Shown here: positions 5,238 to 29,858 of the stretch, in pieces | How the letters are laid out: each line of letters starts with the position of its first letter | How positions within the stretch are numbered: the stretch's first letter is position 1 | Source: a virus | Strand: one strand, 5' to 3' | Virus record (IMG/VR): IMGVR_UViG_3300042549_000597 | Location: 1 to 30,055 of that record | DNA length: 30,055 nucleotides | The notes under the pieces: generated by a model | Seen by the model: only the letters and a program-made list of their open reading frames with translations | What the model was told of the DNA's origin: nothing | The model's database searches: none | Translations under genes and position numbers: made by a program

Positions 5238-5644
5238 TTCTTGCTCCGCATGTCTGCGAGTTTCTCAACTGTGCGGCCACCGAAGTAGGCCAAGAAAATG
5301 ATCTGCCCCCACTGCCCCAGCAACTGGACGTAGGACTCTTGAGCGTTGTACCCATAGGCAGACATCATGGTGAACACGAAGTACGCCACAAAAATGGCTA
5401 TAAGGGCCATAGGGCGAATGTTTTTGGACAGCCAAGAGTCAGACCCCATGTCGGCCCGCCAGCGCTCTGTGATGGACGTCTGTTCGATCTCAAACAGTTT
5501 GGTGTCGTTAGCCATCTTTGCCAGTTCGCCGTCCTGCGCCATTTTTGCCAAGTCGAGTTGTGCCTTGGCTTTGGCCTCGGGGTCTGGGATCAGCTTGTCG
5601 ATCAGCTTACCGCCGACCTCAAGCAATGCGGTCAATGGAAACAT
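5234..5644 (-). CDS. Holin, GTA-type three-helix family
   Basis: A 136-residue protein resembling the GTA_holin_3TM family. It begins FPLTALLEVGGKLIDKLIPDPEAKAKAQ, has an amphipathic helical middle and the family block WRADMGSDSWLSKNIRP. Two clear membrane helices follow (about residues 77-99 and 106-124), and the tail is basic (KLADMRSKK). Proteins of this type make the inner-membrane lesion that lets endolysin reach the wall. It overlaps the endolysin start by 4 bp, and the plus-strand bases 5645-5647 separate it from the next membrane gene. Holin function is inferred from family and neighbourhood. Confidence 0.82.
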   Translation of the reverse strand: MFPLTALLEVGGKLIDKLIPDPEAKAKAQLDLAKMAQDGELAKMANDTKLFEIEQTSITERWRADMGSDSWLSKNIRPMALIAIFVAYFVFTMMSAYGYNAQESYVQLLGQWGQIIFLAYFGGRTVEKLADMRSKK

Positions 5645-5647
5645 AAT

Positions 5648-6064
5648 TTATCCCCTTACCGCGCTGACCTTGTCAGCACCTTTGGTTACGGTTACCTTGT
5701 CACCCACTACGTCTACGCGCATGGGCTGCTCTTCTCGGTCCAATCGGTCCAGCTTGTCGATCAGTTGTTTCATAACCTCAAACTCGGGACGTTCTTGTTT
5801 GGGGTTGGCTCCAGCGATGCCGTTGAGCATTGATATCAGGGCCGTGAGTGCAGCGCCCAGCAAACCCATGACGGCAGCAATTTTGGACTCCTCTAGCGCA
5901 AGGGAGGCTAGCACGCCAATCACCACGATGAACGTGATGTAGAACAGGCCTTGCTTGCCGATAGCCTTGCCCGCAACTTCTTTGGCGCTGGAGTCGGCTT
6001 CAAGACGATTCAGTTCTGCTTGCGCCTGCGCTTTAAGCATTTCAATGTCAGAAACTTCAGCCAT
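5648..6064 (-). CDS. Two-helix membrane protein of the lysis region
   Basis: 138 residues with an amphipathic N-terminus (SDIEMLKAQAQAELNRLEADS), two membrane helices (about 41-58 and 63-86), then a charged segment containing EVMKQLIDKLDRLDREEQP and a small C-terminal beta-like part (VDVVGDKVTVTKGADKV). The position beside the holin and endolysin suggests a second holin, antiholin or other lysis accessory protein. It has no lipobox and no typical spanin periplasmic coiled coil, so it is not an obvious Rz or Rz1. It is an independent gene, not a frame variant of the holin. Confidence 0.68.
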   Translation of the reverse strand: MAEVSDIEMLKAQAQAELNRLEADSSAKEVAGKAIGKQGLFYITFIVVIGVLASLALEESKIAAVMGLLGAALTALISMLNGIAGANPKQERPEFEVMKQLIDKLDRLDREEQPMRVDVVGDKVTVTKGADKVSAVRG

Positions 6065-6152
6065 ACGCTACCTCAATAAAAACCTTGGCGCACCAGACGA
6101 CAAGCCCAGCAACAAGGGCCGCTGCAATGAATGCAACAGCCCAGTCTTTCAT
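6057..6152 (-). CDS. 31-residue membrane miniprotein
   Basis: The peptide MKDWAVAFIAAALVAGLVVW, then CAKVFIEVAYG, is one long hydrophobic helix preceded by two charged residues. The ATG overlaps the stop of the upstream gene (ATGA), and its own TGA lies inside the start of the downstream gene (8-bp overlap). This is the same tight coupling as the rest of the lysis block, which supports it as a genuine gene despite its size. It may be a pinholin-like or regulatory membrane peptide (inference only). Confidence 0.55.
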   Translation of the reverse strand: MKDWAVAFIAAALVAGLVVWCAKVFIEVAYG

Positions 6153-6328
6153 TTGATGATCCAGATGGCAGAAAAGATGGTTCCGGCCATCGCCACAATC
6201 ATGAGGCCAGCGGTCTTCATCATGATGGATTCGATGCGCTTGAGCCGCGCATTGATCTGCTCATAGCGGATGGCGCAGACTTCTTCGTGGGTGGACAGCC
6301 TAGCTTCCGTCGCGTTGATCGTGCTCAT
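6149..6328 (-). CDS. XhlA-like small membrane protein
   Basis: 59 residues starting MSTINATEARLSTHEEVCAI. A short coiled coil (RYEQINARLKRIESIMMK) and a single C-terminal membrane helix (AGLMIVAMAGTIFSAIWII) follow. This soluble coiled coil plus terminal helix layout resembles hemolysin XhlA-type holin partners in phage lysis cassettes. The ATG at 6328 is preferred; the frame is open upstream to 6394 but that part overlaps another gene and reads as non-homologous. It overlaps the upstream gene by 29 bp. Role in lysis is inferred from layout and neighbours. Confidence 0.6.
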   Translation of the reverse strand: MSTINATEARLSTHEEVCAIRYEQINARLKRIESIMMKTAGLMIVAMAGTIFSAIWIIK

Positions 6329-6452
6329 CTTTTGCTTTCTGCAACTGCTGGTTGATTGACTGTACGACAGGCGCAACCTCACCGTAGGGTGCAAGCATGA
6401 GTGCCCGGTTGATGACAGCCAGTTCTTGAGGGGTTAAGACAAGGGTGATCAT
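6300..6452 (-). CDS. Small conserved phage protein, 50 residues
   Basis: MITLVLTPQELAVINRALML, then APYGEVAPVVQSINQQL, then KAKDEHDQRDGS. This pattern (LTPQEL.VI..AL...PYGEV.P....I..Q) recurs in phages just downstream of tail genes as a hypothetical protein. The start codon overlaps the stop of the tailspike gene (ATGA). It has no membrane segment or recognisable catalytic motif. The stop falls inside the next gene. A compact helical fold is likely. Function unknown. Confidence 0.6.
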   Translation of the reverse strand: MITLVLTPQELAVINRALMLAPYGEVAPVVQSINQQLQKAKDEHDQRDGS

Positions 6453-7738
6453 AGATTGTAGTATGGTACTTTAACGTATCCAGTGCCAACAAAAATTTTC
6501 AAATAGCCCGCAACTTGTGCAGGAGTTGCGCCCGACGATCCAGCAGTAGCCGATGCAAACGAATAGGCGCTGGTGAACGCTATCGTGTCGTTAAAAATAA
6601 CGTCACCCGCATCACTAAACAACACCTTATCGTTTCCGCTGACTGAGTACACCAATCCGGGTATTGCGCCTACGCTGTCATGGCGCAGACGGTACAAAGA
6701 CGAACCGTCAAAGGCTATATTTTCGTTGTTTTTGATGCGGATGGCTGATGTGCTGTTGGTGGCACCACTCAAGTCAACGCCGACAGTGTAGGTGCCGTTG
6801 AACTGAGCACCCCAAGTGCCAGAACTTGACACCTGAAGGCCGACCACCATGTTGCCTTGCAGCGTAATGCCGTTGGTCAACTGGCCTTGCGTCAGGTCAA
6901 GGTTTGTAGGGGCGATTCGCAAGCCGTTAGAGACAGTGTTGATCGTGCCGCCCGCAACGCCTTTACCCACGGACACATCAATGCCGATACGGTTTAAGCC
7001 GGTGTCTGTGCCGTTAGCAAATATACCCGCCTCAATACTAACCAATCCCTTAGTTGGGTTAGCGACTTGAGTGAAGTCACGCGCTTCAGCCACAACACCC
7101 CATGTCGGACCAGTGCTGCGCTTGTTGCCTTGACCGTAGACGCCCACGTTTTCGCCATCGGCTGAGTAGTTGTCCACAATACCGACAATCGTCCACTCGA
7201 ACGATGTCTCAGTTGCGCCTGTGATGGTGCGTGCTGCAATGTTGGGGTTGACAAAGCCAACCGTGCCGCCCGAGACAGCCGAGGCGTCACGCAGTGTGTT
7301 GATGGAGGCTTTGGTGGCCGAGTCCAGCGCTCCGGCTGTGGGTGATGTGCCGTCCAACAACTGAAGGCGGGCGTTGACAGTGGTCGCCACGCCAGTGTCG
7401 GCAGGAGTGTAGCCGATCAGCGTAGCGCCGTTGCCAGCAGCCAGCACGGCCAGCGTGGGGCCGTTGGCACCGTTCACGTTGTCGGAGGTCCATATCTCCA
7501 CATCATCGGCGTCTTTGAGCACCATGAAGTAGCGGTTGTCGCCGCACCACACAGCCGCCTCGCCTCGGCTGTTCAGGATCACCGGGTTGGTGTTGGCCGT
7601 GCCGCCGTTGTAGTCGGTGAACGTGGCTTGGGGCGTGGTCGTGCCAGCAGCGTAGGTGAACAGCTTGCCGCCCACCAACGGGTTACCGTTGGCGTCGAAG
7701 AACTGCATTACTGGACTGGGGATGAGCGTAGTAGGCAT
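6449..7738 (-). CDS. Tailspike / tail fibre protein
   Basis: 429 residues. The N-terminus (MQFFDANGNPLVGGKLFTYAAGTTTPQ, then TDYNGGTANTNPVILNSRGEAAVWCG) is the virion-attachment domain shared by many podovirus tailspikes and fibres. A linker with IGYTPADTG follows. The rest is Gly/Thr/Ser/Val-rich beta sequence compatible with a trimeric beta-helix or fibre, and it ends in a short hydrophobic motif (GYVKVPYYNL) seen in other tail fibres. I see no identifiable depolymerase active site. It follows the ejection proteins in the late operon and probably binds the host surface. It is one of at least three candidate receptor-binding proteins in the window. Confidence 0.8.
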   Translation of the reverse strand: MPTTLIPSPVMQFFDANGNPLVGGKLFTYAAGTTTPQATFTDYNGGTANTNPVILNSRGEAAVWCGDNRYFMVLKDADDVEIWTSDNVNGANGPTLAVLAAGNGATLIGYTPADTGVATTVNARLQLLDGTSPTAGALDSATKASINTLRDASAVSGGTVGFVNPNIAARTITGATETSFEWTIVGIVDNYSADGENVGVYGQGNKRSTGPTWGVVAEARDFTQVANPTKGLVSIEAGIFANGTDTGLNRIGIDVSVGKGVAGGTINTVSNGLRIAPTNLDLTQGQLTNGITLQGNMVVGLQVSSSGTWGAQFNGTYTVGVDLSGATNSTSAIRIKNNENIAFDGSSLYRLRHDSVGAIPGLVYSVSGNDKVLFSDAGDVIFNDTIAFTSAYSFASATAGSSGATPAQVAGYLKIFVGTGYVKVPYYNL

Positions 7739-7752
7739 GATCGTGTTCCTGG

Positions 7753-10179
7753 TTACTTAGCGAGGGCGTTTTGGATTTCCTGCTCGGGCGTGAGCATGTT
7801 ACGCTGGAATGCGCGCGTCTTTGGACCCTGACCGCCGGTCTTGACTGGGCGTGCCTTGCGGAATTGTTCTTCCAGCATCTCCAAGTTGCTTTGCAACTTT
7901 TCGCGCTCCATCATAGCGGCTTGACGCAGGCGCAAGTCTTGCGAACGGGCAGCAATATCTGCCTGCATCTGAGCTTTTTGCTTAACCTTATCGATGGTTT
8001 CTTGCAACCAAACGCGGTCCATCATCTTAGTGGCCAAGGCTTTGTCACTCAGCGCCTTCATGCCTGGCACGGCCTCGGCTAAATCGACTTTGGTCTTCTC
8101 CCACGCAATCCGCTGCTCGGCACTCATCAAAGCAGGCGACTTGCCAGACGACAAAATGTCGGCCGCACCTGACAAACTCTTGCCGGTGCTTTCGATAATT
8201 TGAATGTCAGGCGTAGCGCCGCGCAGCGTTGTGTCTACAGGCACCAGTCTGCCGGTAACAGGGTCCAGCTCAAACGCTTGACCGCCGCGTGTGGGCCGGC
8301 GTGCAGCGGCTTCGGCCGCAGCTGCCTGCTGTTCGGCTTGCTGGCCCAACGTGCGAGACATTCCCGCCGCACGCTGACGTTCGGCGGCGAGTGTTTCCAT
8401 CGTACCGCCGTAGCCTAATTGCGGTGGTCCACCAGTCTCAGGCCCAACAAATGTTGCGCGAGGTGGGTACTGGTTAGGCTGCATTACAAAGTTGGGCGGC
8501 GTAAACGCTTGCTGCGAATAGTCGTAAGGCGCCAACGCGTTAATGGGTGTGTTTGGCTCAACAGGACGCAAACCGCTGGGGATGGGGCGGTAGTCTTGAG
8601 GTATAGCCCGCGAACGCTGATACCCCGGCGACGCCATGCGGCGAGCCATCAAAGCAGACGCAATATTGCCGCTTGCCGCGCCCGCCGCACCACCAACGAT
8701 TGCACCTGGCAAGCCAAACGGCGAACCAATAATCGCGCCCGCTGTACCGGCAGCGCCCGAGCGGGTGGCTTTCTCACGCCATGTTGGTTCACGAACTAAA
8801 CCACCTTGAGTTACTTCTGGAAAGTTAGCCGCCACGTTAGCTAATTTGGCCAATTTGCCAGACAGCGGTCTGCCTTCTGCGGCCAACGAAGCCAACGCTT
8901 GCGGATCCACTACGCCAGTGGCTAAGTTTGTTGCCCGTTCGTAATCATAGGTGCGCGCCAAAGCTGTGCGCGCATTACGGAAATCGGTGACCAGTCGTGG
9001 ATCGGTAATGCTGTTTTCAATCGCCGTTTCCAAAGCGTTGGCCACGCCCATGTTGATGTCGGCGCGCGCGATTGCTTCCGGCGATGGCGGATTAATTCCA
9101 GCCGACTGTTGGTTGTAGATCGCTTGCGCGTCGCGGCGTAGCTGGCGAATACTTTTAACGGTTGTCTCGCCGTTTGTGCCTGCTTGAAGTTGACCTTTAA
9201 TAGTGTCCAAAAAGTTATTGATTGCCGCCGCTTGCCCCGTGTCGCCAATCATTGGTGTAACGCGCAAACTGTCAATACGCCCCAACACCGATTCGTCGGC
9301 GGCTACTGTCGGCAGCGCCCGCACTTTGTCGTATGCACCGCTGATGCCAGGTGCGTTACGAGCTGTCTCAAAAGCCTTGGCGTCTAGCTTGGCAGTTTCG
9401 GGCAAACCCATGTCTTCGCGGGCAACTTTGGCTACCTGCGGTAAGTTAATTTTGGACAAATTACTTTGTAGACTTGTAGTGCCGATAGCCCCTGTACGGA
9501 TGCGGTTGGCAGTTGTGGGTTTGGAAATCGCTGGGTCCAGCGCAAGCCCTAACTCCAATGCATCTTTAGCCGCATCAATGCGCGGCGCGGCCAATTCGCT
9601 TTCTTTAACGCGTTGCGTCTGGATGCGTCGCTGACGCGCTTCAATTGGTGCTTTGACAACAGGAGCGACCTGCTGCACAGAAGGCCCGGCAAGCGTTGCC
9701 AAATTACCCATCATGTTTAAGGGCACGCCTTGCAAACCAGTGCGGGCAAGCATATTGCCAATTGCCTGTGTCTGCGCCTCGGACTCAGGGCTAACCTGCG
9801 GTTGAAAAAACTGCTGCACTTTGCGGCCTGTGGCTTCGCCAGCTTTGATACCCTGCTGTGTACCAAATTTACCGCTGGTCAACGCGCCGTAAATCTTTGC
9901 GCCTTCCACAATAGGCGCTGTAATTGCGCTGGTGCCCAGCGTAACGGCGGTTTCCAATGGCGCCAACAACTTGCCAAAAAAGCCAGATTCGGGGCGCTCG
10001 GGCGCGGCAGTGGGCGCAGGCGCAGCAACGCTGGAGCCTGGAATTTGGTCAACACGGGTGCCTGTGCGGCGCGGGGCGGGGATGCCATTTGATGTTGCCC
10101 GCAGATACGCATCTGGATCAAACGCGGCCGGAGGCGCAGACTGCTTTTGAGCAAGGTATTTGTCGGGATCAAAAGCCAT
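7753..10179 (-). CDS. Large internal virion / DNA ejection protein candidate
   Basis: 808 residues. It opens with a repeated FDPDxYL motif (residues 3-9 and 20-26), and a Pro/Ala-rich linker follows. Long helical stretches rich in Ala, Gln and Arg make up most of the protein. Near 475-510 lies a glycine-zipper-like hydrophobic segment (GAAGTAGAIIG, then GAIVGGAAGAASG), typical of membrane-inserting ejection proteins. The last part is again helical and charged. I see no lytic transglycosylase motif. Its place after the gp7-like protein and before the tailspike matches the gp7/gp20/gp16 ejection set of P22-like phages. The role is inferred from position, size and composition. Its ATG overlaps the preceding stop by one base. 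Confidence 0.68.
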   Translation of the reverse strand: MAFDPDKYLAQKQSAPPAAFDPDAYLRATSNGIPAPRRTGTRVDQIPGSSVAAPAPTAAPERPESGFFGKLLAPLETAVTLGTSAITAPIVEGAKIYGALTSGKFGTQQGIKAGEATGRKVQQFFQPQVSPESEAQTQAIGNMLARTGLQGVPLNMMGNLATLAGPSVQQVAPVVKAPIEARQRRIQTQRVKESELAAPRIDAAKDALELGLALDPAISKPTTANRIRTGAIGTTSLQSNLSKINLPQVAKVAREDMGLPETAKLDAKAFETARNAPGISGAYDKVRALPTVAADESVLGRIDSLRVTPMIGDTGQAAAINNFLDTIKGQLQAGTNGETTVKSIRQLRRDAQAIYNQQSAGINPPSPEAIARADINMGVANALETAIENSITDPRLVTDFRNARTALARTYDYERATNLATGVVDPQALASLAAEGRPLSGKLAKLANVAANFPEVTQGGLVREPTWREKATRSGAAGTAGAIIGSPFGLPGAIVGGAAGAASGNIASALMARRMASPGYQRSRAIPQDYRPIPSGLRPVEPNTPINALAPYDYSQQAFTPPNFVMQPNQYPPRATFVGPETGGPPQLGYGGTMETLAAERQRAAGMSRTLGQQAEQQAAAAEAAARRPTRGGQAFELDPVTGRLVPVDTTLRGATPDIQIIESTGKSLSGAADILSSGKSPALMSAEQRIAWEKTKVDLAEAVPGMKALSDKALATKMMDRVWLQETIDKVKQKAQMQADIAARSQDLRLRQAAMMEREKLQSNLEMLEEQFRKARPVKTGGQGPKTRAFQRNMLTPEQEIQNALAK

Positions 10180-26771: not shown

Positions 26772-28298
26772 TTAAGCACCCATCCATCCAGTTGAGACCA
26801 TGCCGCGCTCTGACACGGTGCGCCGCTCGGGTCGATTGTAGTCACCCCGGTTTGCGACCGGGTACGAGAATGTCAGCGCGATGGCGTCGGCAGCGTCGGG
26901 CGACGCCAAGCCACGGGCCTTCATGTCTTTCTTTGACTCCAGGAAGATCGAGCCTTTGGAGTCCGGCTTCATCATAGGCGAGATCAGGTCGGTTTTCAAG
27001 AACCTGTCGTTGGGAATGCTGGCCGACTTCAACCAGTCGCGCATGTCGCCCCATATCTGCGCCCGCATGTTGCCGTACATGGCTGGGTTGCGCGACTTCC
27101 AGCCGAAGTTCACACCCTTGATCTTGTAGCGCTGTTCTTTGAGCCGGTCCACAATGCCCGCCCCCAGCCCGCCCTCGTCGATGAACACCATCGCTGGCTT
27201 GAACTCCTCGATCGCCTCGATCACGTGCCCGACCACCGTCATGGTGTCGTCGCCTCGGTGCCTGATGATCCGCACGATGTCCCGCCCCTGCCGCACGGCC
27301 AGCACGGTGGCGTCTGCCCCGAACCGCGCTGGGTCCACGCCGATCACGACGGGCGCTGATGGGTCTTTGTACGCGGGCCGCTTCATGGCATCGTCCACCA
27401 CCATGCTGGAGATGAACTGGTCGTCGCCAGCGTTCGGGAACTCGCCGTACACCTCGACGTGCGCTTGTGATGAGTCGGCCCCGTATTCGTCGATGATCTG
27501 CTGGTAGACCTGCTTGTCGGTCCCCTCCACGGTGCGGGCGTCTACCACCTTAGTCTTCCAGAACTCCCGCTTGCTGTGGAATGTCTCGTAGAAGTACCCG
27601 CTGTTGCGCCGTGGGTTGGAGAACGCCAACCAGAAACGGTTGGGTGTGTTCTCCGTAAAGAAGCCTGCCGTCACCGCCCAGATGGCGTCGTCGATACCCG
27701 AGGCCTCGTCGAAGATCACCATCACGCCGTCGAAGTTGTGGACACCCGCGTAGGCGTCTGGGTTCTCCGCTGACCACAGCCGCCCCTCGACGCCCCAGTA
27801 ACGTGTGCCCTTCTTCAGGTCGCGCTCGACCAGCTCGGTCAGCCACTTGGCTGGCATCAGCCTGGTAGCCGAGACTTCAAACCAGTGGCTGTTGAGTGAC
27901 ATCGCCAACCACTTGGTGATCTCGGCCCATGTGATCGACCGTAATTGGCTTTCTGAGTTAGCCGACACGATGGTCGTCGAGCCGATGCGTGTGGACAGCA
28001 TCCAGATCACGATCCAGCTGACCAACGCCGACTTGCCAATACCGCGCCCTGATGAGACTGAGTGGCGCAAGGTGTTGAAGTCCACCTGACCTTTGTTTTG
28101 TTTGATGTGGTCGCCGATCTGCTGGAGCACCTCGCGCTGCCATTTGCGTGGTCCCGAGAAGTGTTCCAGTGGCGTGCCCTTGACGCCCCACGGGAATGTG
28201 TACAGCACGAACGCCAGTGGGTTGTCCTTGTACTGTGGCGACCAGAGCCTGGCCATCAACTCCTGTTCGTCTTCAGCCGAATAAATGGTGGTTTGCAT
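26772..28298 (-). CDS. terL: Terminase large subunit
   Basis: 508 residues (P22 gp2 is 499). ATPase domain: Walker A SGRGIGKS (83-90), Walker B VMVIFDE with Asp197 and catalytic Glu198, and coupling motif FSNPRR (226-231). Nuclease domain, RNase H fold: GVDPAR (Asp322), MVFIDEGG (Asp374) and SPDAADA (Asp468, Asp471), the expected metal-binding acids. The protein pumps DNA into the procapsid and cuts the concatemer. It is linked by a TAATG overlap to the small terminase gene. Headful packaging is suggested by its relatives but not shown here. Confidence 0.96.
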   Translation of the reverse strand: MQTTIYSAEDEQELMARLWSPQYKDNPLAFVLYTFPWGVKGTPLEHFSGPRKWQREVLQQIGDHIKQNKGQVDFNTLRHSVSSGRGIGKSALVSWIVIWMLSTRIGSTTIVSANSESQLRSITWAEITKWLAMSLNSHWFEVSATRLMPAKWLTELVERDLKKGTRYWGVEGRLWSAENPDAYAGVHNFDGVMVIFDEASGIDDAIWAVTAGFFTENTPNRFWLAFSNPRRNSGYFYETFHSKREFWKTKVVDARTVEGTDKQVYQQIIDEYGADSSQAHVEVYGEFPNAGDDQFISSMVVDDAMKRPAYKDPSAPVVIGVDPARFGADATVLAVRQGRDIVRIIRHRGDDTMTVVGHVIEAIEEFKPAMVFIDEGGLGAGIVDRLKEQRYKIKGVNFGWKSRNPAMYGNMRAQIWGDMRDWLKSASIPNDRFLKTDLISPMMKPDSKGSIFLESKKDMKARGLASPDAADAIALTFSYPVANRGDYNRPERRTVSERGMVSTGWMGA

Positions 28299-28768
28299 TA
28301 GGCGCTTTGTTTATGTGGGGCCAGTCTGGCTTGCAGCACTGGTGTGGTGGCGTGTTCTACTGCTTGTACGTCGATGACGTCTGCGGCGCCCGCTGCGCGG
28401 CGCTCGGCCTCGGCCAGTGCACCAAGAATACTGATCTGTTGGTTGACGTCCACTGTGATGGCCTGCTTGGCGACCCAGCCGTGGACGTTCTGCAAGATGG
28501 CCAGCGCTGCTTTGGCGTCGCCCTGCTCGGCTGCGCTGTGCAGCTGCTTGGATGCCAGCAGCTCACCGTCGGCGCGGCCTTTTTGTTCGGCCAACTGCGC
28601 CGCTCTGTCCAACTCGCACAACTGCCGGTAGGCGGTGGGCACCATGCCTGCTGCGAGGGCCAGGTTGTCGCCCTTTAAGCCGAGCTTGGCGGCGTCATAG
28701 ATGCGGTTAAGCACCGCCTCTGTGGCGCGCACTTCGTTGATGACAAGTGGCAGTGAATGAAAACTCAT
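28298..28768 (-). CDS. terS: Terminase small subunit
   Basis: 156 residues (P22 gp3 is 162). The N-terminal half contains a helix-turn-helix-like region (IYDAAKLGLKGDNLALAAGMVPTAYRQLCELD) typical of small terminases that bind the packaging site. A long charged central helix follows (AAQLAEQKGRADGELLASKQLHSAAEQGDAKAALAIL). The C-terminal HGWVAKQAITVDVNQQISIL block is common among phage TerS proteins and would contact TerL. An AAGGAG ribosome binding site lies five bases before the ATG. It is the first gene of the leftward late operon. Confidence 0.86.
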   Translation of the reverse strand: MSFHSLPLVINEVRATEAVLNRIYDAAKLGLKGDNLALAAGMVPTAYRQLCELDRAAQLAEQKGRADGELLASKQLHSAAEQGDAKAALAILQNVHGWVAKQAITVDVNQQISILGALAEAERRAAGAADVIDVQAVEHATTPVLQARLAPHKQSA

Positions 28769-29071
28769 ATTTCTCCTTCGCCAACACGGCTGGGGACTGG
28801 TGGGTATTCCTGTATGGGCAGGCCAGTAGCATGTACCTGCTTGAGCATCCCTGACTAGCCAGCCCCCATGCGTGTTGACGTGTGCGGGAAGTGTAAAGCA
28901 TTTTGTAAAAAATAAAAATTGTTTGCGAGCGCTCCGCTGCGGTTGGCCCTTCCGCTCGGCCCTACCCCCTCCCCCTCCAGCTCAAACCATCACGCAGTTA
29001 GTGTGTGCACACTGACATTTTGTGGACAATGTGGACAGTCCACACAAAGCCGCCAACCCCTAGATGTGTGC

Positions 29072-29114
29072 ACTGTATGCTCATGCAGTACTGTATGTAT
29101 GTACATCACTGTAT
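29072..29114 (+). repeat. Three ACTGTAT repeats at an 18-bp period
   Basis: ACTGTAT occurs at 29072, 29090 and 29108, each exactly 18 bp from the last. A fourth copy is at 29500, over the start of the first rightward gene. The 11 bases between copies differ, so this is spaced motif repetition and not a simple tandem duplication. It lies between two TGTGGAC pairs and may be a second binding-site family. Confidence 0.62.
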
Positions 29115-29153
29115 AGAACTGTGGTTTGTGGACAATGTGGACAATCTGTTTTT

Positions 29154-29234
29154 GCATGGTCCACAATGTCCACAATGCGCGGGCCAAAATGCGCGACGCC
29201 AGGGGCGTGGACAATGTGGACATGTGGACCATGC
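29154..29234. repeat. Large inverted repeat within the TGTGGAC array
   Basis: GCATGGTCCACA at 29154-29165 is exactly complementary to TGTGGACCATGC at 29223-29234. The similarity continues inward through further GTCCACA/TGTGGAC copies with a one-base offset. The arms enclose a GC-rich loop that includes the ATGCGCG direct repeat (29176 and 29190). The region could form a cruciform or bind a protein as a dyad. Confidence 0.7.
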
Positions 29235-29258
29235 AGTTTAAATCGCTGTACCCCTAGT

Positions 29259-29288
29259 TGCTTAATTTTTAAGCAGTTGATTTTTTTT
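29259..29288. other. AT-rich inverted repeat followed by a T-run
   Basis: TGCTTAA (29259-29265), three T, then TTAAGCA (29269-29275) is a perfect 7-bp dyad, followed shortly by eight T at 29281-29288. The weak AT stem is not a strong terminator. It may instead be an easily melted DNA unwinding element beside the TGTGGAC sites. Confidence 0.42.
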
Positions 29289-29417
29289 ATCATTTGATCT
29301 AATAGTCCACATTGTCCACAAACAGCCCAAACCCGCATAAATAGGGGCGTCGCATGTGGACACCGGCCGCGCTTTTTCGCTATCCACGCGCTATCCACAA
29401 CGTCCACACACCGAAAA

Positions 29418-29474
29418 TTGTAACAAGTTGTAACAAACCCCTTTACAGTTGCAAAGCAATTCTTTACAGTCGCA
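29418..29474 (+). promoter_or_regulatory. Paired operator-like repeats upstream of the rightward operon
   Basis: TTGTAACAA, itself a TTGT/ACAA dyad, is repeated at 29418 and 29428, a 10-bp spacing. CTTTACAGTYGCA follows at 29441-29453 and 29462-29474, a 21-bp spacing (two helical turns). They lie 18-74 bases upstream of the ATG at 29492, where a promoter and operators are expected. No clear -10 element was found. Confidence 0.5.
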
Positions 29475-29491: not shown

Positions 29492-29716
29492 ATGAAAGTA
29501 CTGTATATGAACAAAGCAAATACGCGCGAATTGAACAAAGCGCTTGCATGGATCGCCACCGGCGACGCCAGCGCGATTGACGTCGCATGTCGCACCCTGG
29601 CGACGTTGCAGCGCGCCGGTACAGCTAGTGATACAAAAACAATCCTGGCAATCATTAAAGAAAACAAGTTGTCGCATAAGTTTTACACCGACAACCATTG
29701 CCTTGTCGCCTATTAA
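29492..29716 (+). CDS. Small helical protein, first gene of rightward operon
   Basis: 74 residues from ATG 29492, or 69 from ATG 29507 (MNKANTRELNKAL). No strong ribosome binding site is seen for either; GAAAG before 29507 is slightly better. The sequence ELNKALAWIATGDASAIDVACRTLATLQRAGT resembles a small helical domain. It ends IKENKLSHKFYTDNHCLVAY. I do not recognise a family. As the first gene downstream of the repeat region it could encode a regulator or early host-takeover protein (inference). Confidence 0.58.
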   Translation: MKVLYMNKANTRELNKALAWIATGDASAIDVACRTLATLQRAGTASDTKTILAIIKENKLSHKFYTDNHCLVAY

Positions 29717-29762: not shown

Positions 29763-29858
29763 ATGAAGCAATTTTTTACAGACCTTTTCCACGCGGCATT
29801 GTTCGCGCTTTGCATCGGCGCACCTTTCGCCATGTTCTTCTACTTTTATGGGGCTTAA
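29763..29858 (+). CDS. 31-residue membrane miniprotein
   Basis: MKQFFTDLFHAALFALCIGA, then PFAMFFYFYGA, is an aromatic-rich single hydrophobic helix. AAGGA at 29750-29754 is an adequate ribosome binding site. It sits one base before the next start. It may insert in the host inner membrane; no family is recognised. Confidence 0.52.
   Translation: MKQFFTDLFHAALFALCIGAPFAMFFYFYGA

Follow-up and report, generated by a model that had tools for sequence, protein, structure and literature searches.

What is the function of a dense array of the heptamer TGTGGAC at the junction between two divergent operons of an uncultivated phage? The array lies in the window, by which we mean the whole stretch of 30,055 nucleotides analysed here, a linear 30-kb fragment (G000) of a P22-like podovirus in which portal, coat, terminase and gp10-like genes were found. 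The podovirus family to which it belongs is common in freshwater viromes and has genomes of 36-39 kb, so that about 6-8 kb are absent from the window; in several relatives, repeats of 60-127 bp at the ends suggest a circular map. In the annotated relatives MW202483.1 and OR003940.1 (DSL-LC05), the part missing from the window encodes a primase-helicase or primase-polymerase, a DNA polymerase, an SSB and an exonuclease. When this part was sought via the right end of the window, the sole match was a contig with distant similarity, at 87.6% over 306 bp. A nucleotide search with the array region against annotated phages gave no match, nor did an Rfam search.

An earlier note made from the sequence alone had placed the array between the leftward late and the rightward early operons, and rightly so, since TerS and TerL are encoded on the minus strand as far as 28768 and the early genes begin with the ORF at 29507. 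The features of the junction are as follows.

28298..28768, minus strand: terminase small subunit-like gene (TerS), left of the array
29021..29044, no strand: left iteron cluster, TGTGGACAATGTGGAC then inverted GTCCACA, conserved 0.91-0.94 in ten relatives of 94-97% identity
29127..29142, plus strand: iteron pair TGTGGACAATGTGGAC with 9-bp spacing, identical in 10/10 relatives compared
29159..29174, minus strand: iteron pair with 9-bp spacing in the opposite orientation, weakly conserved in relatives (0.31-0.41)
29206..29229, plus strand: iterons on the left side of the AT-rich element, with a one-mismatch copy (CGTGGAC) at 29206 and exact copies at 29215 and 29223, the copy at 29215 conserved 0.99
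29230..29304, no strand: AT-rich element (up to 80% A+T per 50 bp) containing a small inverted repeat, TTGCTTAA..TTAAGCA
29305..29320, minus strand: right iteron pair with 9-bp spacing, inward-facing, conserved 0.96-1.00
29355..29361, plus strand: single iteron, from the exact-site count and the alignment of relatives
29391..29408, minus strand: degenerate TGTGGATAG copy and an exact TGTGGAC in 9-bp register, from the site scan and the alignment of relatives
29442..29470, plus strand: promoter-like sequence TTTACA-17-TACAGT for the rightward early operon, from a consensus scan only
29507..29716, plus strand: first early ORF, 69 aa, no function assigned

Our count agreed with the 13 exact copies of TGTGGAC previously reported at 29021-29408 (7 on the plus strand and 6 on the minus strand). 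The whole window contains 18 copies, a number never reached by dinucleotide shuffles (5.4 +/- 2.3); the five copies outside the array, spread over about 29.7 kb, correspond to the chance number. From one exact site to the next, the gaps are 9, 8, 89, 9, 23, 9, 47, 8, 82, 9, 41 and 47, thus indicating that the close pairs described earlier as 9-bp-spaced are real; most copies belong to pairs with a gap of 8 or 9 bp. Both copies of TATCCAC mentioned in the earlier note are present as well, near 29383 and 29391. The pairs nearest the AT-rich element face inward, with plus-strand copies on its left and minus-strand copies on its right, such that several short repeats in a non-coding region surround an AT-rich element, as in iteron origins. 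This element is likely the unwinding element.

To follow the array through related phages, we used loci selected by terminase alone or, later, by the primase-helicase, in both cases without regard to the word; one further set carries TGTGGAC by construction. Alignment with relatives, which the earlier note had proposed as a check, showed that the place and architecture of the array are conserved and the word is variable. Nearly all relatives read far enough bear an array at the same place, and in the terminase-selected loci the TerS/early junction often has another word: besides TGTGGAC, we found TGTTGGC, TTTGGGTC, TGTGRGTC, TGTAGGY, TATGGAC and others. No clear array was apparent in six loci for which the downstream search covered more than 4 kb (L276, L302, L330, L335, L336 and L343). 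In a repeat search of each whole record, the junction array ranked first in most genomes, and elsewhere it was one of the strongest. Across ten close relatives the match to the window was highest in the iteron columns (0.83), lower in the spacers (0.66) and lowest in the left flank (0.55). In L131 (TGTTGGC) and L114 (TGTGGAC), the AT-rich core is the same except for one inserted C, and the flanking iterons differ. L028 was considered as an exception to the relation between word and initiator described below, and was rejected as such: it bears a chimeric origin (coordinates 605-1165 upstream of TerL), where nine TGTGGAC copies at 605-799 abut TTGGGTC repeats from 803, and the right half, beside the AT-rich element, fits its own initiator, which is of the TTTGGGT type. 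A chimeric origin was also seen in L300.

The variability of the word bears on the proposal that the array is made up of variant DnaA boxes to which host DnaA binds. It is true that TGTGGACAA differs by one base from TGTGGATAA and that one TGTGGATAG copy is present, but the consensus 9-mer TTWTNCACA, to be expected at a DnaA-dependent origin, is absent from the whole window, and close relatives swap every copy for TGTTGGC, TTTGGGTC, TATGGAC or others. A word that changes freely between close relatives is not explained by a conserved host protein, and we regard binding by DnaA as extremely improbable.

A search among the core families common to most relatives for one that follows the word showed that the primase-helicase best separates the word classes, the difference being greatest in its C-terminal tail. 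An apparent difference in its N-termini between the word classes was rejected as an artefact of ORF starts. As the tail and the word change together, the primase-helicase is implicated as the reader. Its gene is absent from the window; in relatives it lies about 2-2.5 kb beyond the array. Of the binders suggested in the earlier note, a phage initiator acting at an origin is thus favoured by this co-variation, and host DnaA is disfavoured by the missing consensus box and the changing word.

The terminase small subunit, by contrast, does not follow the word. Because the TerS gene adjoins the array on the left and the phages are P22-like, the array could be a packaging (pac) site read by TerS, but near-identical TerS proteins occur with different words: 149/150 residues are identical between L131 (TGTTGGC) and L134 (TGTGGAC), and 136/136 between L189 (TTTGGGT) and L105 (TGTGGAC). 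TerS as the reader is thereby largely refuted, and the chance that this is a pac site is minimal. In plasmids, iteron arrays also serve partition and copy-control roles, so that the array might belong to a plasmid-like state, as a parS-like site or copy-control iterons bound by a Par-type protein. The co-varying winged helix belongs, however, to the primase-helicase, and no centromere-binding protein was recognised in the survey of shared families, which makes such a role very improbable.

The identity of the primase-helicase fits with a helicase that could act at an origin. A Pfam search identified DUF5906 (E 3e-11) and, weakly and below the cut-off, RepB_primase; among solved structures, the NrS-1 helicase is nearest, together with SaPI5 PriRep1 when folds are compared. 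The relatives thus encode an SF3-type helicase/primase of their own. The AlphaFold model of the C-terminal 132 residues of the L134 protein, with pLDDT above 90 over the core and most of the domain, predicts the order helix-strand-helix-helix-strand-loop-strand-helix, that is, a winged-helix topology, and the co-varying residues fall in the modelled loop that joins the final two strands (construct residues 86-91 and 100-104). The full-length model is weaker (mean pLDDT 70.7, pTM 0.38). When the C-terminal domain was submitted to Foldseek on its own, no match was significant (best E 0.065); many of the weak matches were winged-helix proteins.

Near the C-terminus the protein carries the motif GR-[LIV]-x-S-x-x-x-x-x-KKH, and the loops correspond to the words as follows.

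Loop (L/I)KSRxxD/E: TGTGGAC, or mixtures of TGTGGAC and TGTGGGC
Loops LASRxYQ and LGSREYA: TGTTGGC
Loop VAS(G/S)xx(Q/P): TTTGGGT
Loop LKSRA(H/N)T: TGTGRGT
Loop IASRELI: TGTGGGC
Loop KSSLHD: TATGGAC
Loop VASRxHS: TGTRGGY

Relatives with terminases 94-97% identical to that of the window combine the loop KSRR(H/Y/F)D with TGTGGAC. Altogether, the wing sequence predicted the word in 124 loci (112 of them tabulated first), and a tree of the helicase body, with the tail left out, requires at least 17 word changes. When independent pairs on the tree were compared, a GGAC-type word agreed with Asp/Glu at the seventh loop position in 6/7 and was opposite in none (p=0.03); for G at base 2 and Arg the agreement was about 3/3, too few for significance. 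In an all-column scan over the last 420 residues of 114 sequences, positions 731, 726 and 728 ranked highest for the whole heptamer and position 728 for base 2. The training set showed Arg728 with G at heptamer position 2 in 86/86 cases and non-Arg with non-G in 10/11, the one clear exception being the distant relative MW202483.1, which has Pro at the 728 position and G at base 2. This rule was found post hoc; a second, out-of-sample set was fetched by the primase-helicase with already seen loci excluded and at least four copies required, although it is phylogenetically dependent on the first. There, G2 was present in 24/24 loci with Arg728 and absent from 9/9 loci without it (Fisher 2.6e-8, uncorrected for relatedness).

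A natural swap is seen between L131 (TGTTGGC) and L134 (TGTGGAC), where the helicase body is identical in 672/681 residues, but the loop segment in only 9/13 and the tail in only 22/31; in this near-identical pair, the switch is confined to the loop and C-tail of the protein and to the iteron words. Since the wing codons lie about 2-2.5 kb from the array and could be exchanged with it as a block, linkage contributes to the association. Linked inheritance accounts for it only in part, however, and not for similar residue/base pairings that recur in distant bodies, as with LASRxYQ in L131 and LGSREYA in L163, both accompanied by TGTTGGC.

Taken together, these results lead us to propose, with a probability of about 0.8, that the array is an iteron replication origin opened by the phage's own primase-helicase via its C-terminal winged helix. 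The sequence basis is the conserved place and layout and the co-variation of word and loop; physical binding, loading, melting, priming and origin activity we infer from these. The protein would consist of an N-terminal RepB-type primase, a central SF3-like DUF5906 ATPase and the C-terminal winged-helix domain, which would bind TGTGGAC in its close pairs to the left and right of the AT-rich element. Loaded as a ring at the iterons, the primase-helicase would melt this element and prime synthesis at the melted origin. The word would be read largely by the wing loop between the last two strands (residues ~726-731), and a change in the loop would be accompanied by a change in all iterons. Initiator loading on iterons, melting and priming would be the simplest account by analogy with SaPI Rep/Cch2 and P4 alpha.

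A different account of the same junction is that the array is a multi-copy operator, an early/late switch where a repressor or activator controls the divergent promoters and replication starts elsewhere. Its divergent location, the promoter-like sites overlapping or adjoining it and the extra palindrome array at the same junction in related phages would all suit an operator, and an array-bound initiator could also autoregulate transcription. However, in families taken from a simple ORF finder, no early-operon protein that might be the reader, such as the conserved repressor encoded near a lambda-type operator region, is common to most relatives. The primase-helicase does occur in most of them and its wing varies with the word; inward-facing pairs around a conserved AT-rich element also suit an origin. 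We therefore consider an operator alone unlikely, though a switch or repressor role may exist in addition to the origin function.

The proposed origin resembles several known systems. SaPI Rep has been described as a self-loading helicase that recognises iterons close to its own gene by its C-terminal domain, and Cch2 beside it offers a model for an iteron-loading initiator (PMC7581432). The predicted phage protein is structurally similar to SaPI Rep (SaPI5 PriRep1, PDB 7pds/7ola), but it has a RepB-type primase N-terminus, an operon of small genes separates its gene from the array at a distance of about 2-2.5 kb, and the wing apparently reads the word, a heptamer in tandem pairs of 8-9 bp. 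The alpha protein of phage P4 is likewise a primase-helicase fusion whose C-terminal winged helix binds origin repeats (PMC4234260), although its primase is of the Toprim type and its repeats are different. The NrS-1 phage polymerase (PDB 6k9c) is the closest solved relative of the helicase part, but the sequence match stops short of the C-terminal winged helix. RFX1 provides a case of a winged helix reading DNA with the wing. It has been grouped together with the P4 alpha domain as winged-helix proteins (PMC10516667). In the case of PLE RepA/origin modules and ICP1 Odn, the initiator DNA-binding domain and the iterons co-vary and swap while the rest of the protein is conserved (PMC8263062), which the word switching described here resembles; RepA is, however, a RepA_N-family protein and not a helicase, with an N-terminal reader and iterons of ~30 bp. 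For the iteron-related domain of geminivirus Rep, an unrelated initiator of circular ssDNA viruses, residue/iteron correspondences were similarly derived from natural variation (PMC10653810, citing Arguello-Astorga 2001).

This kind of origin would thus already be known from SaPI Rep and P4 alpha; what appears new, judging from sequence comparison, is wing-based word switching across a large lineage. For an abundant group of uncultivated phages, an unexplained repeat becomes a candidate initiator-origin pair, with more than 100 natural variants for reading a wing-based DNA-recognition code. Origin words switch quickly, which suggests that the identity of the origin is under selection, by incompatibility or by attack on the origin. 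There is about an even chance that the lineage repeatedly diversifies its origin word, with some six residues of the wing, and not of the recognition helix, setting the word by a readable code and defining compatibility groups. The details of such a code are equally balanced: Arg728 might pair with G2 and Asp/Glu731 go with GGAC, the driver perhaps being origin-targeting competitors or nucleases, as with PLE/Odn.

The GC-skew analysis suggested in the earlier note was uninformative, as skew appears to follow gene direction. The cumulative minima lie mostly away from the array, at a second divergent junction near 10 kb from TerL. In the complete relatives G001, G002, G007, G009, G010 and G017, this is the divergent junction of an exonuclease-like gene and a helicase gene (families F2 and F3), and the minimum there possibly reflects gene orientation only. 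At the place of the 640-aa polymerase of most relatives (F6), G001 encodes a 928-aa protein (5616-8402 from the TerL start) whose family has no member in the other genomes. Two relatives, L260 and L262, are in contigs of a Rhodoferax MAG, which hints at betaproteobacterial hosts, though a binning error is possible.

Left of the iterons, L026, L151, L166, L174, L198 and 26 more loci bear a second array, operator-like, of 3-6 palindromes of about 20 bp under the loose pattern GTTAGTN(4-10)ACTAAC. The AAGTTAG "words" of one subclade were rejected as iteron words, being this palindrome array beside ordinary iterons. In the early operon of the window, an ORF at 29763-29858 encodes a 31-aa hydrophobic peptide (MKQFFTDLFHAALFALCIGAPFAMFFYFYGA), and similar short ORFs occur in L131. 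Finally, ACTGTAT is present four times between the iterons (29072-29116) and at the start of the early gene (29497-29505), and is largely retained in L114, L025 and L131.
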